IMG/VR virus record: IMGVR_UViG_3300047552_001097
Location: 1 to 64,000 of that record
Origin: a virus
DNA: 64,000 bases
Reading direction: 5' to 3' (one strand)
Program-made: the position numbers and the translations under genes
Notes under the pieces: generated by a model
Told to the model about the DNA's origin: nothing
What the model saw: the letters and a program-made list of their open reading frames with translations, nothing else
Database searches by the model: none
Part shown: positions 22,726 to 42,572 of the stretch, piece after piece
Numbering within the stretch: the stretch's first letter is position 1
How the letters are laid out: the number at the start of each line of letters is the position of its first letter

Positions 22726-23166
22726 ATGAACACATTAAGTAATGTAGCTTTAGGTCCTTTTGAGTTACCCTCTGGAAAGGTAATTACGTTTAGAACTTTA
22801 TCTTTTAAAGAAAGAAGAGAATTGCTTTCTAAGTGGCAGAAGAATGATGGTAGAACCCAAGGTTATCTTCTAGAAGAATATTTTATGGCTGCTGCTTTAG
22901 TAACAGAGGATAATCAAGGAGTTATTGATGAGTATCAATCTTCAGATGGTTATATTGCTAGACTTGACCATTGGTCAATGAAAGATACCTCTTATTATAT
23001 GGAAGCCTTTATTATCATTAATGGTGTAGGTGAGAGAGAAAGACCTAATATTGAGGCAGAGGTAAAAAAAATACTTGGGGTTACTCCAGGTACACCCTTA
23101 CCCCCTCCCCCACCCGTTTCTCAGGAGAGTACCTCCTCTCTACCCAAAGGGCTAAAGATTATGTAA
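22726..23166 (+). CDS. Tail assembly chaperone, short form
   Basis: The N-terminus has the look of phage tail assembly chaperones: FELPSGKVITFRTLSFKERR near residues 12-32, then a helical domain that usually binds the tape measure and tube. After residue 113 the frame crosses an A AAA AAA heptamer and continues to a Pro-rich tail ending at 23166. The short form (146 aa) is the unshifted product. The gene lies between the giant - strand gene and the portal gene, not in the usual place between tube and tape measure. The start has an ATAAATATG context. Confidence 0.72.
   Translation: MNTLSNVALGPFELPSGKVITFRTLSFKERRELLSKWQKNDGRTQGYLLEEYFMAAALVTEDNQGVIDEYQSSDGYIARLDHWSMKDTSYYMEAFIIINGVGERERPNIEAEVKKILGVTPGTPLPPPPPVSQESTSSLPKGLKIM
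23064..23070 (+). promoter_or_regulatory. -1 ribosomal frameshift slippery site A AAA AAA
   Basis: The chaperone frame reads GTA AAA AAA ATA, so the heptamer A AAA AAA is correctly phased for a -1 slip. The -1 frame has a stop at 23052-23054, just before the site, and is then open to 23694. This is the classic layout of the lambda G/GT type. A stimulatory structure downstream was not worked out; the C-rich stretch at 23100-23115 may pair with later G-runs. Confidence 0.75.
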
Positions 23167-23696
23167 TTCCTCCCATCCAAGTATGGGGAGTATTAGATGT
23201 TTATTATTCATATGAACTAAATAATCTATCTACATTATTCCCCACACCTTTAATGCCTATAGCTCCACTATTATATATAGGGTTAAAAGAAAGATATCTT
23301 ATTAATATACCTATAGATACATTAAGTAGAGCTATAGATAGTCTAAGATTTATTCCTCCTTCCTATGCCGGTTCTTTATACTATGACCCTAATATCCCTT
23401 ATTACTTTAGTTTATTAGTTGATGCTATTTCCACTAATATAGTAGAGCAGACTCAACTAGATAACTGGATAAGAATATGTCAAGTATGTCCTCTACCCTT
23501 ATTTCAAGATATAGCTTATTTAGAGTTAGATATCTTTTGGAGTACAGCTATAGCTAAGGCGGTAGATAGTTATGTTAGAGAGCAGAATAAGAAACAGGAT
23601 GAAGTAATGAAGAATCTAGAGAAGAAGTTAATTAAAGAGGATATACCTACAAGTAACTTTAATCACATACCCATGCCCAAGAATTATGGAATGTAA
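23070..23696 (+). CDS. Tail assembly chaperone, -1 frameshift extension
   Basis: This segment is translated as the C-terminal part of a fusion with the 22726 gene after a -1 slip at 23064-23070. The -1 frame codes about 208 residues (PPIQVWGVLDVYYSYELN, then a helical domain and a charged tail EQNKKQDEVMKNLEKKL). An internal ATG at 23253 would give a separate 147-aa protein, but the open frame extends well upstream of it and overlaps the first gene through the Pro-rich stretch, which fits frameshifting better. The fused form would recruit tail tube subunits to the tape measure. The portal gene follows 6 bp later. Confidence 0.7.
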   Translation, partial: NTWGYSRYTLTPSPTRFSGEYLLSTQRAKDYVIPPIQVWGVLDVYYSYELNNLSTLFPTPLMPIAPLLYIGLKERYLINIPIDTLSRAIDSLRFIPPSYAGSLYYDPNIPYYFSLLVDAISTNIVEQTQLDNWIRICQVCPLPLFQDIAYLELDIFWSTAIAKAVDSYVREQNKKQDEVMKNLEKKLIKEDIPTSNFNHIPMPKNYGM

Positions 23697-25081: not shown

Positions 25082-26104
25082 ATGCCACAAGTATTTCATA
25101 AAGATATAAAGCCTCAAGATGTACACCCCCCCTACTCTTTTATATTTAATACAGCAATACAAAGAGAGGCTGCTCTTGTTACTAATAATGATATTGGGAA
25201 ACTAGCTAGACAAATAGATGAGGATTCTATATATATACTTACATCTACAGCTCCTACTTGGATAAAACTATTAATGCAAGGGGATAGTACCTTTCCTTCT
25301 GGTATAGCTGGTGGGGATTTAAGTGGAGTGTATCCTAATCCTAGAGTTATAGCAGACTCTCATAGTCACACCCCAGGTTTGACTGTTCCTTTATATCCAA
25401 CTACTTTACCCCCTTCAGGTATAGCTGGAGGAGATTTAACAGGTTCTTATCCTAATCCTGAACTATCTAATACTGGAGTAATACCTGCTTTATATCACTA
25501 TCCTTCTATAGAAGTGGATAGTAAAGGAAGGGTAAGATCTATACAAAGTAATCCTAAAGGAGAAACTAATTTAGGTACTTCTTTAGGTAATGGATTACCT
25601 ATATATAAAGATAAGCAGGGATTTAATCTTTTATTTAGGTCTATTAAAGGAGAGGGGGGTATAGATATAACTAATGTACTAGATACACTAGTAGTAAGAC
25701 CTGGGAATAATCTAGCGCTTTTATCGGGTTCTACATTTACAGGTCCTATATCTACCCCTTCTCTGGCTTCTCCTCTAATAGAGACTAGTAGATTAGTCTC
25801 TAGTATTTATATGTCAGGTACTGGGGGTTCTTGGAATATAAGAGCTCAGGATGGGAATATACAGACTAGAACTATAGCTAGTTCCTGTTATATATCCTCT
25901 ATCTCTGGTTGTAGAGAAGGAGAAAGATACACTCTAGTGATTAGACAGAATAGTATAGGAGGACATAATATTACCTTTAGTCAAGAGTATAAATTTTGTA
26001 GAGGAGACACTTTATCTATATCTCCTAATAGTATATCTACTATAGATATACTAGTTACTCACTTATCTGAGTATTTATGTACTATAAAAAAAGATTATAT
26101 ATAA
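25082..26104 (+). CDS. Fibre-like virion protein with GGDLxGxYPNP repeats
   Basis: Two copies of the phage fibre repeat occur at residues 72-87 (PSGIAGGDLSGVYPNP) and 111-126 (PSGIAGGDLTGSYPNP). These repeats are known in tail and head fibres and adhesins and usually form trimeric beta shafts. The N-terminal 70 residues may be the virion-attachment domain. The rest is beta-rich and ends in a small sandwich-like region with SGTGGSWNIRAQDG and GREGERYTLVI-type strands. Its place between portal and protease genes suggests a head or neck fibre rather than a tail fibre. It starts 2 bp after the portal stop. Confidence 0.7.
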   Translation: MPQVFHKDIKPQDVHPPYSFIFNTAIQREAALVTNNDIGKLARQIDEDSIYILTSTAPTWIKLLMQGDSTFPSGIAGGDLSGVYPNPRVIADSHSHTPGLTVPLYPTTLPPSGIAGGDLTGSYPNPELSNTGVIPALYHYPSIEVDSKGRVRSIQSNPKGETNLGTSLGNGLPIYKDKQGFNLLFRSIKGEGGIDITNVLDTLVVRPGNNLALLSGSTFTGPISTPSLASPLIETSRLVSSIYMSGTGGSWNIRAQDGNIQTRTIASSCYISSISGCREGERYTLVIRQNSIGGHNITFSQEYKFCRGDTLSISPNSISTIDILVTHLSEYLCTIKKDYI

Positions 26105-39935: not shown

Positions 39936-42572
39936 ATGTATAACGATGATGGAGAGTTAGGAAGAAGAAGGCAGTATAACAATAGGATGGAGAGTTCTAC
40001 TAAAGCTGTAAGGGGTAACTTTGAGATTCTATATGGGAAGATAGTGGGACTTATAGGCGCTGAGAGTTATGAACATAAAGGGTTTAACTATCAAGTAGAG
40101 CTTATAGATACAGGACAGTATATTTTATGTAGAAGGTTACTACCCTATGCTTCATATGAGGGAGTAGGAGTTTATCATCCAATGGAGGTAGGAGACCCTG
40201 TAGTAGTAGCTGTTAAGAATGGGGTTATGAGAGATGGGTTGATACTAGGCTCTTTTTTTACAGAAGGTAACTACGAAGAGTTCTATGTAGATGGATTAGG
40301 TGGAGAACCCACTCAATATAATCAGGGGACTCTAAGACAGATGGAGAATAATGCTCCTAGTGTTCATCCTAATAGAGTGGCTCAGCCAGACTCCTTCTTT
40401 CATATAGTAGGGGGAAAGAATGTATTAGAGGCATTCCATGACCCCTCTCTTACTGATGGAAGTATAGATAAAAGGGCTCTTAAAAGGAATCAACCTGTAT
40501 CCATAGAACTAAAGAATAGATTAGGAGACTGGTCTCAATGGGTTTCTGGGGATGCTATTATCTACTCAGACCAGGCTATTATTCTTGCTTCTAGTATGAG
40601 TGGAGCTTCTATTTGTAAGAAGCAAAAGGAGATGGTAGAGTATTATGAACAAATGGCTAAGGACTTAGAATCCTATCTATCCGATAGTAGGTCCTATTCC
40701 CCTATTGATTTATCTCAGGGGGTAACAGGTTTAATATCTGTTACTACAGAGGGGAATATTCCTTTAACAAGTGAGTTAGATGAGGATAAGAGGGTAAAGA
40801 TTAATAAATCAAAGGAGCATAGGTTAAGAAGATATATAAATGGGTATGAGAATCCAGACTTTCTACAATGGGCCCCTTTTATTGAATATCATTTAGTAGA
40901 GATAAAGAGGTTAGCAGAGGAGGCTAGAAAGGGGTTAACTAATTGTAAGGAGAGTGAGTATTTAGTTAATAGAGAAACAGAGGTTAGTAAAGAAATAAAT
41001 AAAGAACTACCCTCTAATGACCAATGTCAGGTTCTATCAGATAATGGTGCAATAGATGATAAGTATATAGAGTCATTAGCTGAGCATTCTATATGTAAGA
41101 AAGGGAATACTAAACACTATCCTTATGTAAAGTGGAAGGCTAATAAAGAAGACTTAGTTAAGTTAGATAGTCTAGCTATTAAGGGTAAAGAAGAAAGGTT
41201 AATTCATAAGGATATAGTTACTCCTTTAAAAGAACTCTTTGATAAAGCTAAGAAAGTTGGTATTAATCTAGCAGCTACTTCTAGTTATAGAGATGAAGAT
41301 ACTTTAGAAGATTCAAATAAAAGAACTTGTACAGACCTTGATGAGACCTCTATCAAATCAGTTGCCCCTTATACTCATAGTGAGCATATAACTGGTTATG
41401 CTCTGGATATTGTAGATAGAGATGATGCAAGTACCCATTCCTTAGATAGTAAGGTAAATAGTAAAGCCTGGGAGTGGTTAGGTAAGAACTTAAAGGATTC
41501 GGACTTTGAGTTGTCATTCCCTAAAGATAATAAACAGGGAGTAAACTATGAACCTTGGCATATTAGATATATAGGAGATAAGCTCCCTAAGTTCTTAGCA
41601 GTAATGTTTGCCTATACAAGGGGTAACACTGATTTAATTAAGGAGTTAGTAGGTAAGTTATGTAAAGATAGACCCCCAGAGTCTAACTCTAATACTAATA
41701 AAGGGAAAGATAGAAGTGATTTAGATATTGATTTACTTATAGATAAGGTCACTAAGGCTAATCCTACTCTAGTCTCTGATAAGACTGGGATTCATTCTTT
41801 TGGAGTAATAGGTAAAAAGACTTTTTTATCTAAGAAAGCTAAAGAGAGTATAGGTCCAGCATCTATTATTAAGTTGAATATAGCTCTAGCCTTTGATAGT
41901 TTGATGAAAGGAACTCCTTTAACTCAATTAAAAAGAAAGTTTGATATAAGTAAATTTCCCATTGAGGTTATAGCTGAGGGAGACTCTTTTAATGGTAGGT
42001 CTGTATTCCTTTTAGAGAATCTAGTAGAAGCTATGTTAAAAGATAGTTCTAATACTGCAACTAATATTCTTTTTCTTTTATTAGGGGAAAGAGATGATGG
42101 TAGGGGTAACTCTGTATTTAATAGAGATAAGTCTAATGAAACTCTAAAGGGAACTAGTCCTTCTACTGAGTTTAATAGGTTATTATCTTCTACTAGTGAA
42201 GCCGAAAAAGCTAAGGATACTACCAATAAATCTACAACGGAGGATGCCCTTAATGCTATGTATAAACTAGCTATATCTAATGTTCCATTAACTAAGGAGA
42301 TTAGTATTCCCGCATTAGGGGAAGCCGAGAGACCTTCTGGATTACAGAAAGTAGAGCTTAATAAGATAGGTTGGAATAGTTATGCTAGTGGTAATGTTTG
42401 TTTATATAAAGGTAAGAAAGGAAGGTTTGTTATAGGTGGATTTACTAACTATGACCCATCTAAAGAAACAGACTATGACTTAAAACTATTAACTCAGGCT
42501 TCTAATTTAGCTATTAAAGCTCTAGAAAGTGGTATTGAATATATAGAACAAATGGAGATAGAGGGATTTTAA
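39936..42572 (+). CDS. Hub spike protein with VanY carboxypeptidase and beta-lactamase-like domains
   Basis: Residues about 25-130 form a gp5/VgrG-like OB fold (FEILYGKIVGLIGAE, then VGDPVVVAVKNGVMRDGLIL). Residues about 400-560 are a VanY/M15B D,D-carboxypeptidase: SEHITGYALD gives H484 and D491, and EPWH gives H542, the usual zinc ligands. Residues about 590-870 resemble class A beta-lactamases and related D,D-peptidases: SIIK (S643, K646), SSN (704-706) and KIG (810-812) match SxxK, SDN and KTG. I did not find a clear E166 equivalent, so peptidoglycan binding or transpeptidase-like hydrolysis is more likely than antibiotic hydrolysis. The arrangement suggests a spike that clips cell-wall peptides. 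Confidence 0.82.
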   Translation: MYNDDGELGRRRQYNNRMESSTKAVRGNFEILYGKIVGLIGAESYEHKGFNYQVELIDTGQYILCRRLLPYASYEGVGVYHPMEVGDPVVVAVKNGVMRDGLILGSFFTEGNYEEFYVDGLGGEPTQYNQGTLRQMENNAPSVHPNRVAQPDSFFHIVGGKNVLEAFHDPSLTDGSIDKRALKRNQPVSIELKNRLGDWSQWVSGDAIIYSDQAIILASSMSGASICKKQKEMVEYYEQMAKDLESYLSDSRSYSPIDLSQGVTGLISVTTEGNIPLTSELDEDKRVKINKSKEHRLRRYINGYENPDFLQWAPFIEYHLVEIKRLAEEARKGLTNCKESEYLVNRETEVSKEINKELPSNDQCQVLSDNGAIDDKYIESLAEHSICKKGNTKHYPYVKWKANKEDLVKLDSLAIKGKEERLIHKDIVTPLKELFDKAKKVGINLAATSSYRDEDTLEDSNKRTCTDLDETSIKSVAPYTHSEHITGYALDIVDRDDASTHSLDSKVNSKAWEWLGKNLKDSDFELSFPKDNKQGVNYEPWHIRYIGDKLPKFLAVMFAYTRGNTDLIKELVGKLCKDRPPESNSNTNKGKDRSDLDIDLLIDKVTKANPTLVSDKTGIHSFGVIGKKTFLSKKAKESIGPASIIKLNIALAFDSLMKGTPLTQLKRKFDISKFPIEVIAEGDSFNGRSVFLLENLVEAMLKDSSNTATNILFLLLGERDDGRGNSVFNRDKSNETLKGTSPSTEFNRLLSSTSEAEKAKDTTNKSTTEDALNAMYKLAISNVPLTKEISIPALGEAERPSGLQKVELNKIGWNSYASGNVCLYKGKKGRFVIGGFTNYDPSKETDYDLKLLTQASNLAIKALESGIEYIEQMEIEGF

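Follow-up and report, generated by a model that had tools for sequence, protein, structure and literature searches.

Phage lambda makes a short protein, gpG, and a longer -1 product, gpGT. The slip occurs at the heptamer G GGA AAG near the end of the first ORF, and the second ORF lies in the -1 frame. Gene pairs of the G/GT type are usually, though not universally, located directly 5' of the tape measure gene, and chaperones of this type are absent from virions. In lambda, the tape measure is the binding partner of gpG and the tube protein that of the gpGT T domain, and the ratio of the two products matters (PMC5009743). In Bacillus phage G, gp181 and gp182 are annotated as the unshifted and joined forms of a tail assembly chaperone and directly precede the tape measure gene of that phage.

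The ORF1/ORF2 pair described here shares with both systems a layout of two products, one short and one longer and predicted to arise by a -1 shift; as in lambda, the slip site is close to the ORF1 stop and the second ORF lies in the -1 frame. It differs from lambda in its heptamer (A AAA AAA or A AAA AAG) and from both lambda and phage G in position, as no identified tape measure gene follows it. Sequence similarity to lambda gpG/gpGT was not detectable (hhalign probability 0.3%), and none was found between the pair and gp181/gp182 of phage G.

Gene neighbourhood and layout of the pair

The window, a stretch of 64,000 nucleotides, is part of a 171,917-base IMG/VR virus record (IMGVR_UViG_3300047552_001097, positions 1 to 64,000). 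Its major capsid protein shared 38-43% identity with the major capsid proteins of the Fukuivirus phages (Ma-LMM01, MaMV-DC, and others) and of Microcoleus phage My-WqHQDG. The window phage, a virus of cyanobacteria, is distantly related to Microcystis phage Ma-LMM01 (Fukuivirus). Along the window, a giant minus-strand ORF is followed by the ORF1/ORF2 pair, a Mu-type portal gene (PF06074), and the genes for a protease/scaffold-like protein and the capsid protein, with sheath and baseplate genes farther along.

The pair adjoined the giant gene in every lineage examined, and the portal gene came after the pair in all of them. The sequence-only reading had assigned the pair to the lambda G/GT type; the mechanism fits this type, but the gene position does not, as the gene directly after the pair is the portal gene and not an identified tape measure gene. 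A crude composition search for a tape measure among the other genes of the window gave no useful signal.

The giant ORF had no Pfam match. At about residue 4173 it carries a conserved N(I/L)GDFDGD motif that is similar to the aspartate-bearing catalytic loop found in two-barrel RNA polymerases. Its orientation relative to the pair varied: the two were co-oriented in the Microcoleus-phage lineage (L002, L008, and L009), whereas they were divergent in the window, L003, and L019-L022.

Features of the locus and its surroundings (window coordinates unless a contig is named)
Feature	Position	Strand	Description	Basis
Giant ORF, 5372 aa	6355-22473	-	Homologues: gp080 of Ma-LMM01 (3562 aa) and an ORF in a Microcoleus phage, at least 2622 aa long	
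ORF1, 146 aa	22726-23166	+	Tail-assembly-chaperone-like (gpG-like) domain and proline-rich C-terminal tail of the unshifted product	Homologues, model comparison
TGA	23052-23054	+	Shuts the -1 frame just 5' of the slip site	Sequence
Slippery heptamer	23064-23070	+	A AAA AAA, then one further A	A AAA AAG at the homologous site of six other lineages
-1 continuation	23070-23696	+	208 codons and stop; C-terminal, T-like part of the predicted 323-aa fusion	
Post-slip portion of ORF1	23071-23166	+	Overlaps the -1 frame	Sequence, relatives' overlap, substitutions
147-aa ORF	23253-23696	+	Separate gene to a standard gene caller; starts 61 codons into the -1 part	
A_AAG slip site	L002:6336-6342; L009:3390-3396		Within GCA AAG GAG	

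In frame 0, the codons at the slip site are GTA (23062), AAA (23065), and AAA (23068), followed by ATA, and the run of A's is eight bases long (23064-23071). An in-frame A AAA AAA at this position, reached through GTA AAA AAA, had been read from the sequence beforehand together with a -1 stop at 23052 and about 208 open codons after it. The coordinates of the heptamer were right, and so was the open frame: after the TGA, the next -1 stop is the TAA at 23694-23696, leaving 208 codons after the slip (23070-23693). The predicted fusion is 323 aa long, with 115 residues from ORF1 and 208 residues from the -1 frame. The earliest ATG, GTG, or TTG in the -1 frame is the ATG at 23253, about 61-63 codons beyond the slip and 29 codons beyond the ORF1 stop.

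Five consecutive proline codons (23101-23115) are present in the unshifted tail of ORF1 and might pause ribosomes 3' of the slip site. This five-proline stretch was absent from the relatives in the ORF1 alignment.

Heptamers of the form X XXY YYZ occurred in frame 93 times in the 36 genes of the window. A long -1 frame lay behind only one of these 93 (23064; 208 codons), and the runner-up had a -1 run of 20 codons. Among 3302 -1-frame open runs within genes, the longest was 41 codons. In dinucleotide shuffles, a 213-codon opening appeared in 0 of 2000, and openness from the slip to the first ATG appeared in 1.9%. Runs of A7 were not enriched in the window (13 seen, 22 expected). A chance heptamer was dropped as an explanation, as both the heptamer and -1-run survey and the shuffles of the window speak against it. 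One other in-frame A AAA AAA was seen at 26086-26092, near the end of the gene at 25082-26104; this heptamer probably has no role because its -1 frame is only 17 codons long.

Conservation of the slip site and selection on the -1 frame

The pair was compared with its counterparts in Ma-LMM01, in four further Fukuivirus records (MaMV-DC, DH01, DL02, and CH01) and in IMG/VR contigs. Single-sequence searches of IMG/VR with the ORF1 or capsid protein as query gave no matches; portal and capsid alignments retrieved L008, L009, L019, L020, L021, L022, and several members of the Ma-LMM01 clade.

ORF1 and ORF2 join in the identical -1 register in Ma-LMM01, the four other Fukuivirus records and the IMG/VR contigs. 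The overlap, whose absence from related phages was to have counted against the frameshift, is conserved in them. The overlap was the same in Ma-LMM01 gp081/gp082, MaMV-DC, DH01, DL02, and CH01, and the codons homologous to the slip site of the window read A AAA AAG in all five. The Ma-LMM01 proteins differ from those of the window in a shorter unshifted tail and were 23-29% identical to them. An assembly error was also dropped as an explanation, as the same layout is found in isolates and contigs that are independent of one another.

In seven lineages (the window, L019, L020, L021, L022, L008, and the Ma-LMM01 clade), the aligned (A/V)-K-K residues were encoded as xxA AAA AAR. Given the residues and the codon usage of each locus, the joint chance of this was about 2e-7 with lineages taken as independent, a rough figure because the lineages are related. 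The exception was the Microcoleus-phage lineage (L002 and L009), with GCA AAG GAG and hence an A_AAG tetramer in the same register. In Escherichia coli, the most shift-prone heptamers include A_AAA_AAG, and the most shift-prone tetramer is A_AAG, so this lineage also fits shifting (PMC4066793).

Pairwise counts of synonymous and non-synonymous changes were clear for L002, L009, and L008. The Ma-LMM01 clade had too few changes and was uninformative on selection because its members are too similar. Between L002 and L009, the overlap contained three synonymous and no non-synonymous changes when read in the -1 frame, compared with one and three, respectively, in frame 0. Past the ORF1 stop, as far as the first usable start, the same two contigs differed by 11 synonymous and no non-synonymous changes in the -1 frame. 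Between L008 and L009, dN/dS of the -1 frame past the ORF1 stop was about 0.11. After the slip, constraint is stronger on the -1 frame than on frame 0, and the -1 protein is under selection, including in the stretch without a usable start codon.

With the overlap, register and heptamer conserved and the -1 frame selected, the programmed -1 frameshift of the sequence-only reading was strongly supported. On the conserved register and slip codons and the selection on the -1 frame, the pair is almost certainly decoded by programmed -1 ribosomal frameshifting at A AAA AAA. That ribosomes shift here, and how often, we infer. At GTA AAA AAA, a minority of ribosomes would move back by one base, and both lysyl-tRNAs would re-pair in tandem on AAA AAA. 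Reading would resume from AAT (23070) in the -1 frame and continue to 23696, yielding a 323-aa protein composed of the common N-terminal domain and a helical C-terminal domain. The ratio of short to long form would be set by shift efficiency.

The same fusion would be real, and read in the same -1 frame, if RNA polymerase slipped on the A8 run and added an extra A to the mRNA. Runs of A or T can cause transcriptional slippage (PMC4066793, PMC5009743), and the window offers eight consecutive A's. In relatives, however, the run is only A6 (in GCAAAAAAG) and, for the Microcoleus-phage lineage, A3, and the in-frame phasing of A AAA AAR is conserved. Because the runs in relatives are A6 or shorter, tRNA slippage better explains the conserved mechanism. 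Transcriptional slippage could contribute in the window genome because of its A8 run; it is unlikely as a general mechanism, and as the source of the fusion we consider it improbable. A reading without any fusion, in which ORF2 is a separate gene that starts alone at the ATG at 23253 or at a non-standard start, agrees with the presence of that ATG and with public records that annotate two genes or only the first. Against this reading, amino-acid selection acts on the -1 frame already 5' of the first start, conservation extends to the slip codons, and the first starts are scattered, with the earliest ATG, GTG, or TTG lying 24-137 codons past the site across lineages. Since this start comes 110 codons beyond the slip in L019 and 137 codons beyond it in L008, independent initiation cannot yield the full domain, and two separate genes are highly improbable.

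Programmed ribosomal frameshifting at this pair is an unannotated case of a well-known phage device, in an unusual gene position and with one lineage carrying a tetramer slip site only. Public Fukuivirus records list either two separate hypothetical proteins (e.g., Ma-LMM01 gp081/gp082) or only the first (MaMV-DC), which bears out in relatives the expectation that standard gene calling would miss the frameshift. Literature searches on Ma-LMM01-like phages brought up no published frameshift. Recognizing it would put right how a structural gene pair is annotated in Fukuivirus phages (Ma-LMM01, MaMV-DC, and relatives), whose hosts are bloom-forming cyanobacteria. Depending on the lineage, this one gene has the A AAA AAG heptamer, the A AAA AAA heptamer or the A AAG tetramer as its slip site, a natural series useful for studying how phages keep the product ratio while the slip site changes.

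The search for a stimulatory element comprised RNA folding 3' of the slip site and, for a Shine-Dalgarno-like sequence, inspection by eye of the sequences 5' of it; no stimulator was identified. Folding z-scores 3' of the site were mostly near 0 (lowest about -2), with no significant or conserved stem. In the Microcoleus-phage lineage (L002 and L009), a TGGCC-TCGAT-GGCCA hairpin was seen 7 nt after A_AAG; it was not significant.

Candidate functions of the two products

Sequence searches against Pfam, PHROGs, and the PDB gave no name for either part of the pair. ORF1 had no Pfam match and only the unnamed phrog_32670 in PHROGs, and nothing matched when its profile was compared with single chaperone sequences. 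An AlphaFold2 model of ORF1 (of average quality, pLDDT 70) was compared with solved structures, where it matched YqbN (3klu, Z 6.6), PICI ORF19 (5ir0, Z 5.1), and the HK97 tail assembly chaperone (2ob9, Z 4.5). These fold matches were modest, with Foldseek E never below 0.001. Among the predicted viral structures of BFVD, the model matched phage G gp181 and gp182 (both with a Foldseek probability of about 0.97), several named tail assembly chaperones, T4-like baseplate hub assembly proteins, and an SP-15 protein named 'baseplate hub subunit'. The C-terminal (-1) part was helical and poorly modeled (pLDDT 56.5), and its fold search was without a credible match.

The fold resemblances of the ORF1 model are individually weak yet point one way. 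From these resemblances and the two-part layout, ORF1 is likely a tail assembly chaperone. The tail assembly chaperone claimed by the sequence-only reading had support from the fold resemblance and the two-part layout, with no match to a named sequence family. Taken as a whole, a short tail assembly chaperone accompanied by a -1 frameshifted 323-aa form is the probable account of the pair. On the model of lambda gpG/gpGT, the tape measure would be coated by the short form, and tail-tube subunits would be brought in by the long one.

A frameshifted chaperone could instead serve another part of the particle, either a baseplate hub of the T4 gp26/gp51 type or the adjacent giant protein as its partner. 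The T4-like baseplate hub assembly proteins (gp26/gp51 type) were the best BFVD fold matches of ORF1: the two best matches were named baseplate hub (assembly) proteins, with probability 1.00, and E for proteins so named was 0.005-0.015. The pair also always adjoins the giant gene. However, the SP-15 'baseplate hub' protein sits in the usual chaperone position (SP15_045, with 246 aa the length of the SP-15 BFVD match, lies between the tube and tape measure genes). It is a larger single ORF in which the frameshift layout was not seen. The solved-structure matches include a named tail chaperone, both names may describe one superfamily, and sequence profiles gave no support for ORF1 as a gp26/gp51-type protein. 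Service to another part is thus rather unlikely. Its more specific form, in which the pair serves the adjacent giant protein (3562-5372 aa) and this protein is itself the tape measure or internal tail cargo as well as an injected RNA polymerase, is quite improbable. The tail assembly chaperone remains the preferred function of ORF1.

Among the other genes of the window, an 878-aa protein was encoded at 39936-42572. It had a sub-threshold match to phage baseplate V, together with VanY D-Ala-D-Ala carboxypeptidase and beta-lactamase-like domains, and is possibly a tail hub with predicted lysin activity.
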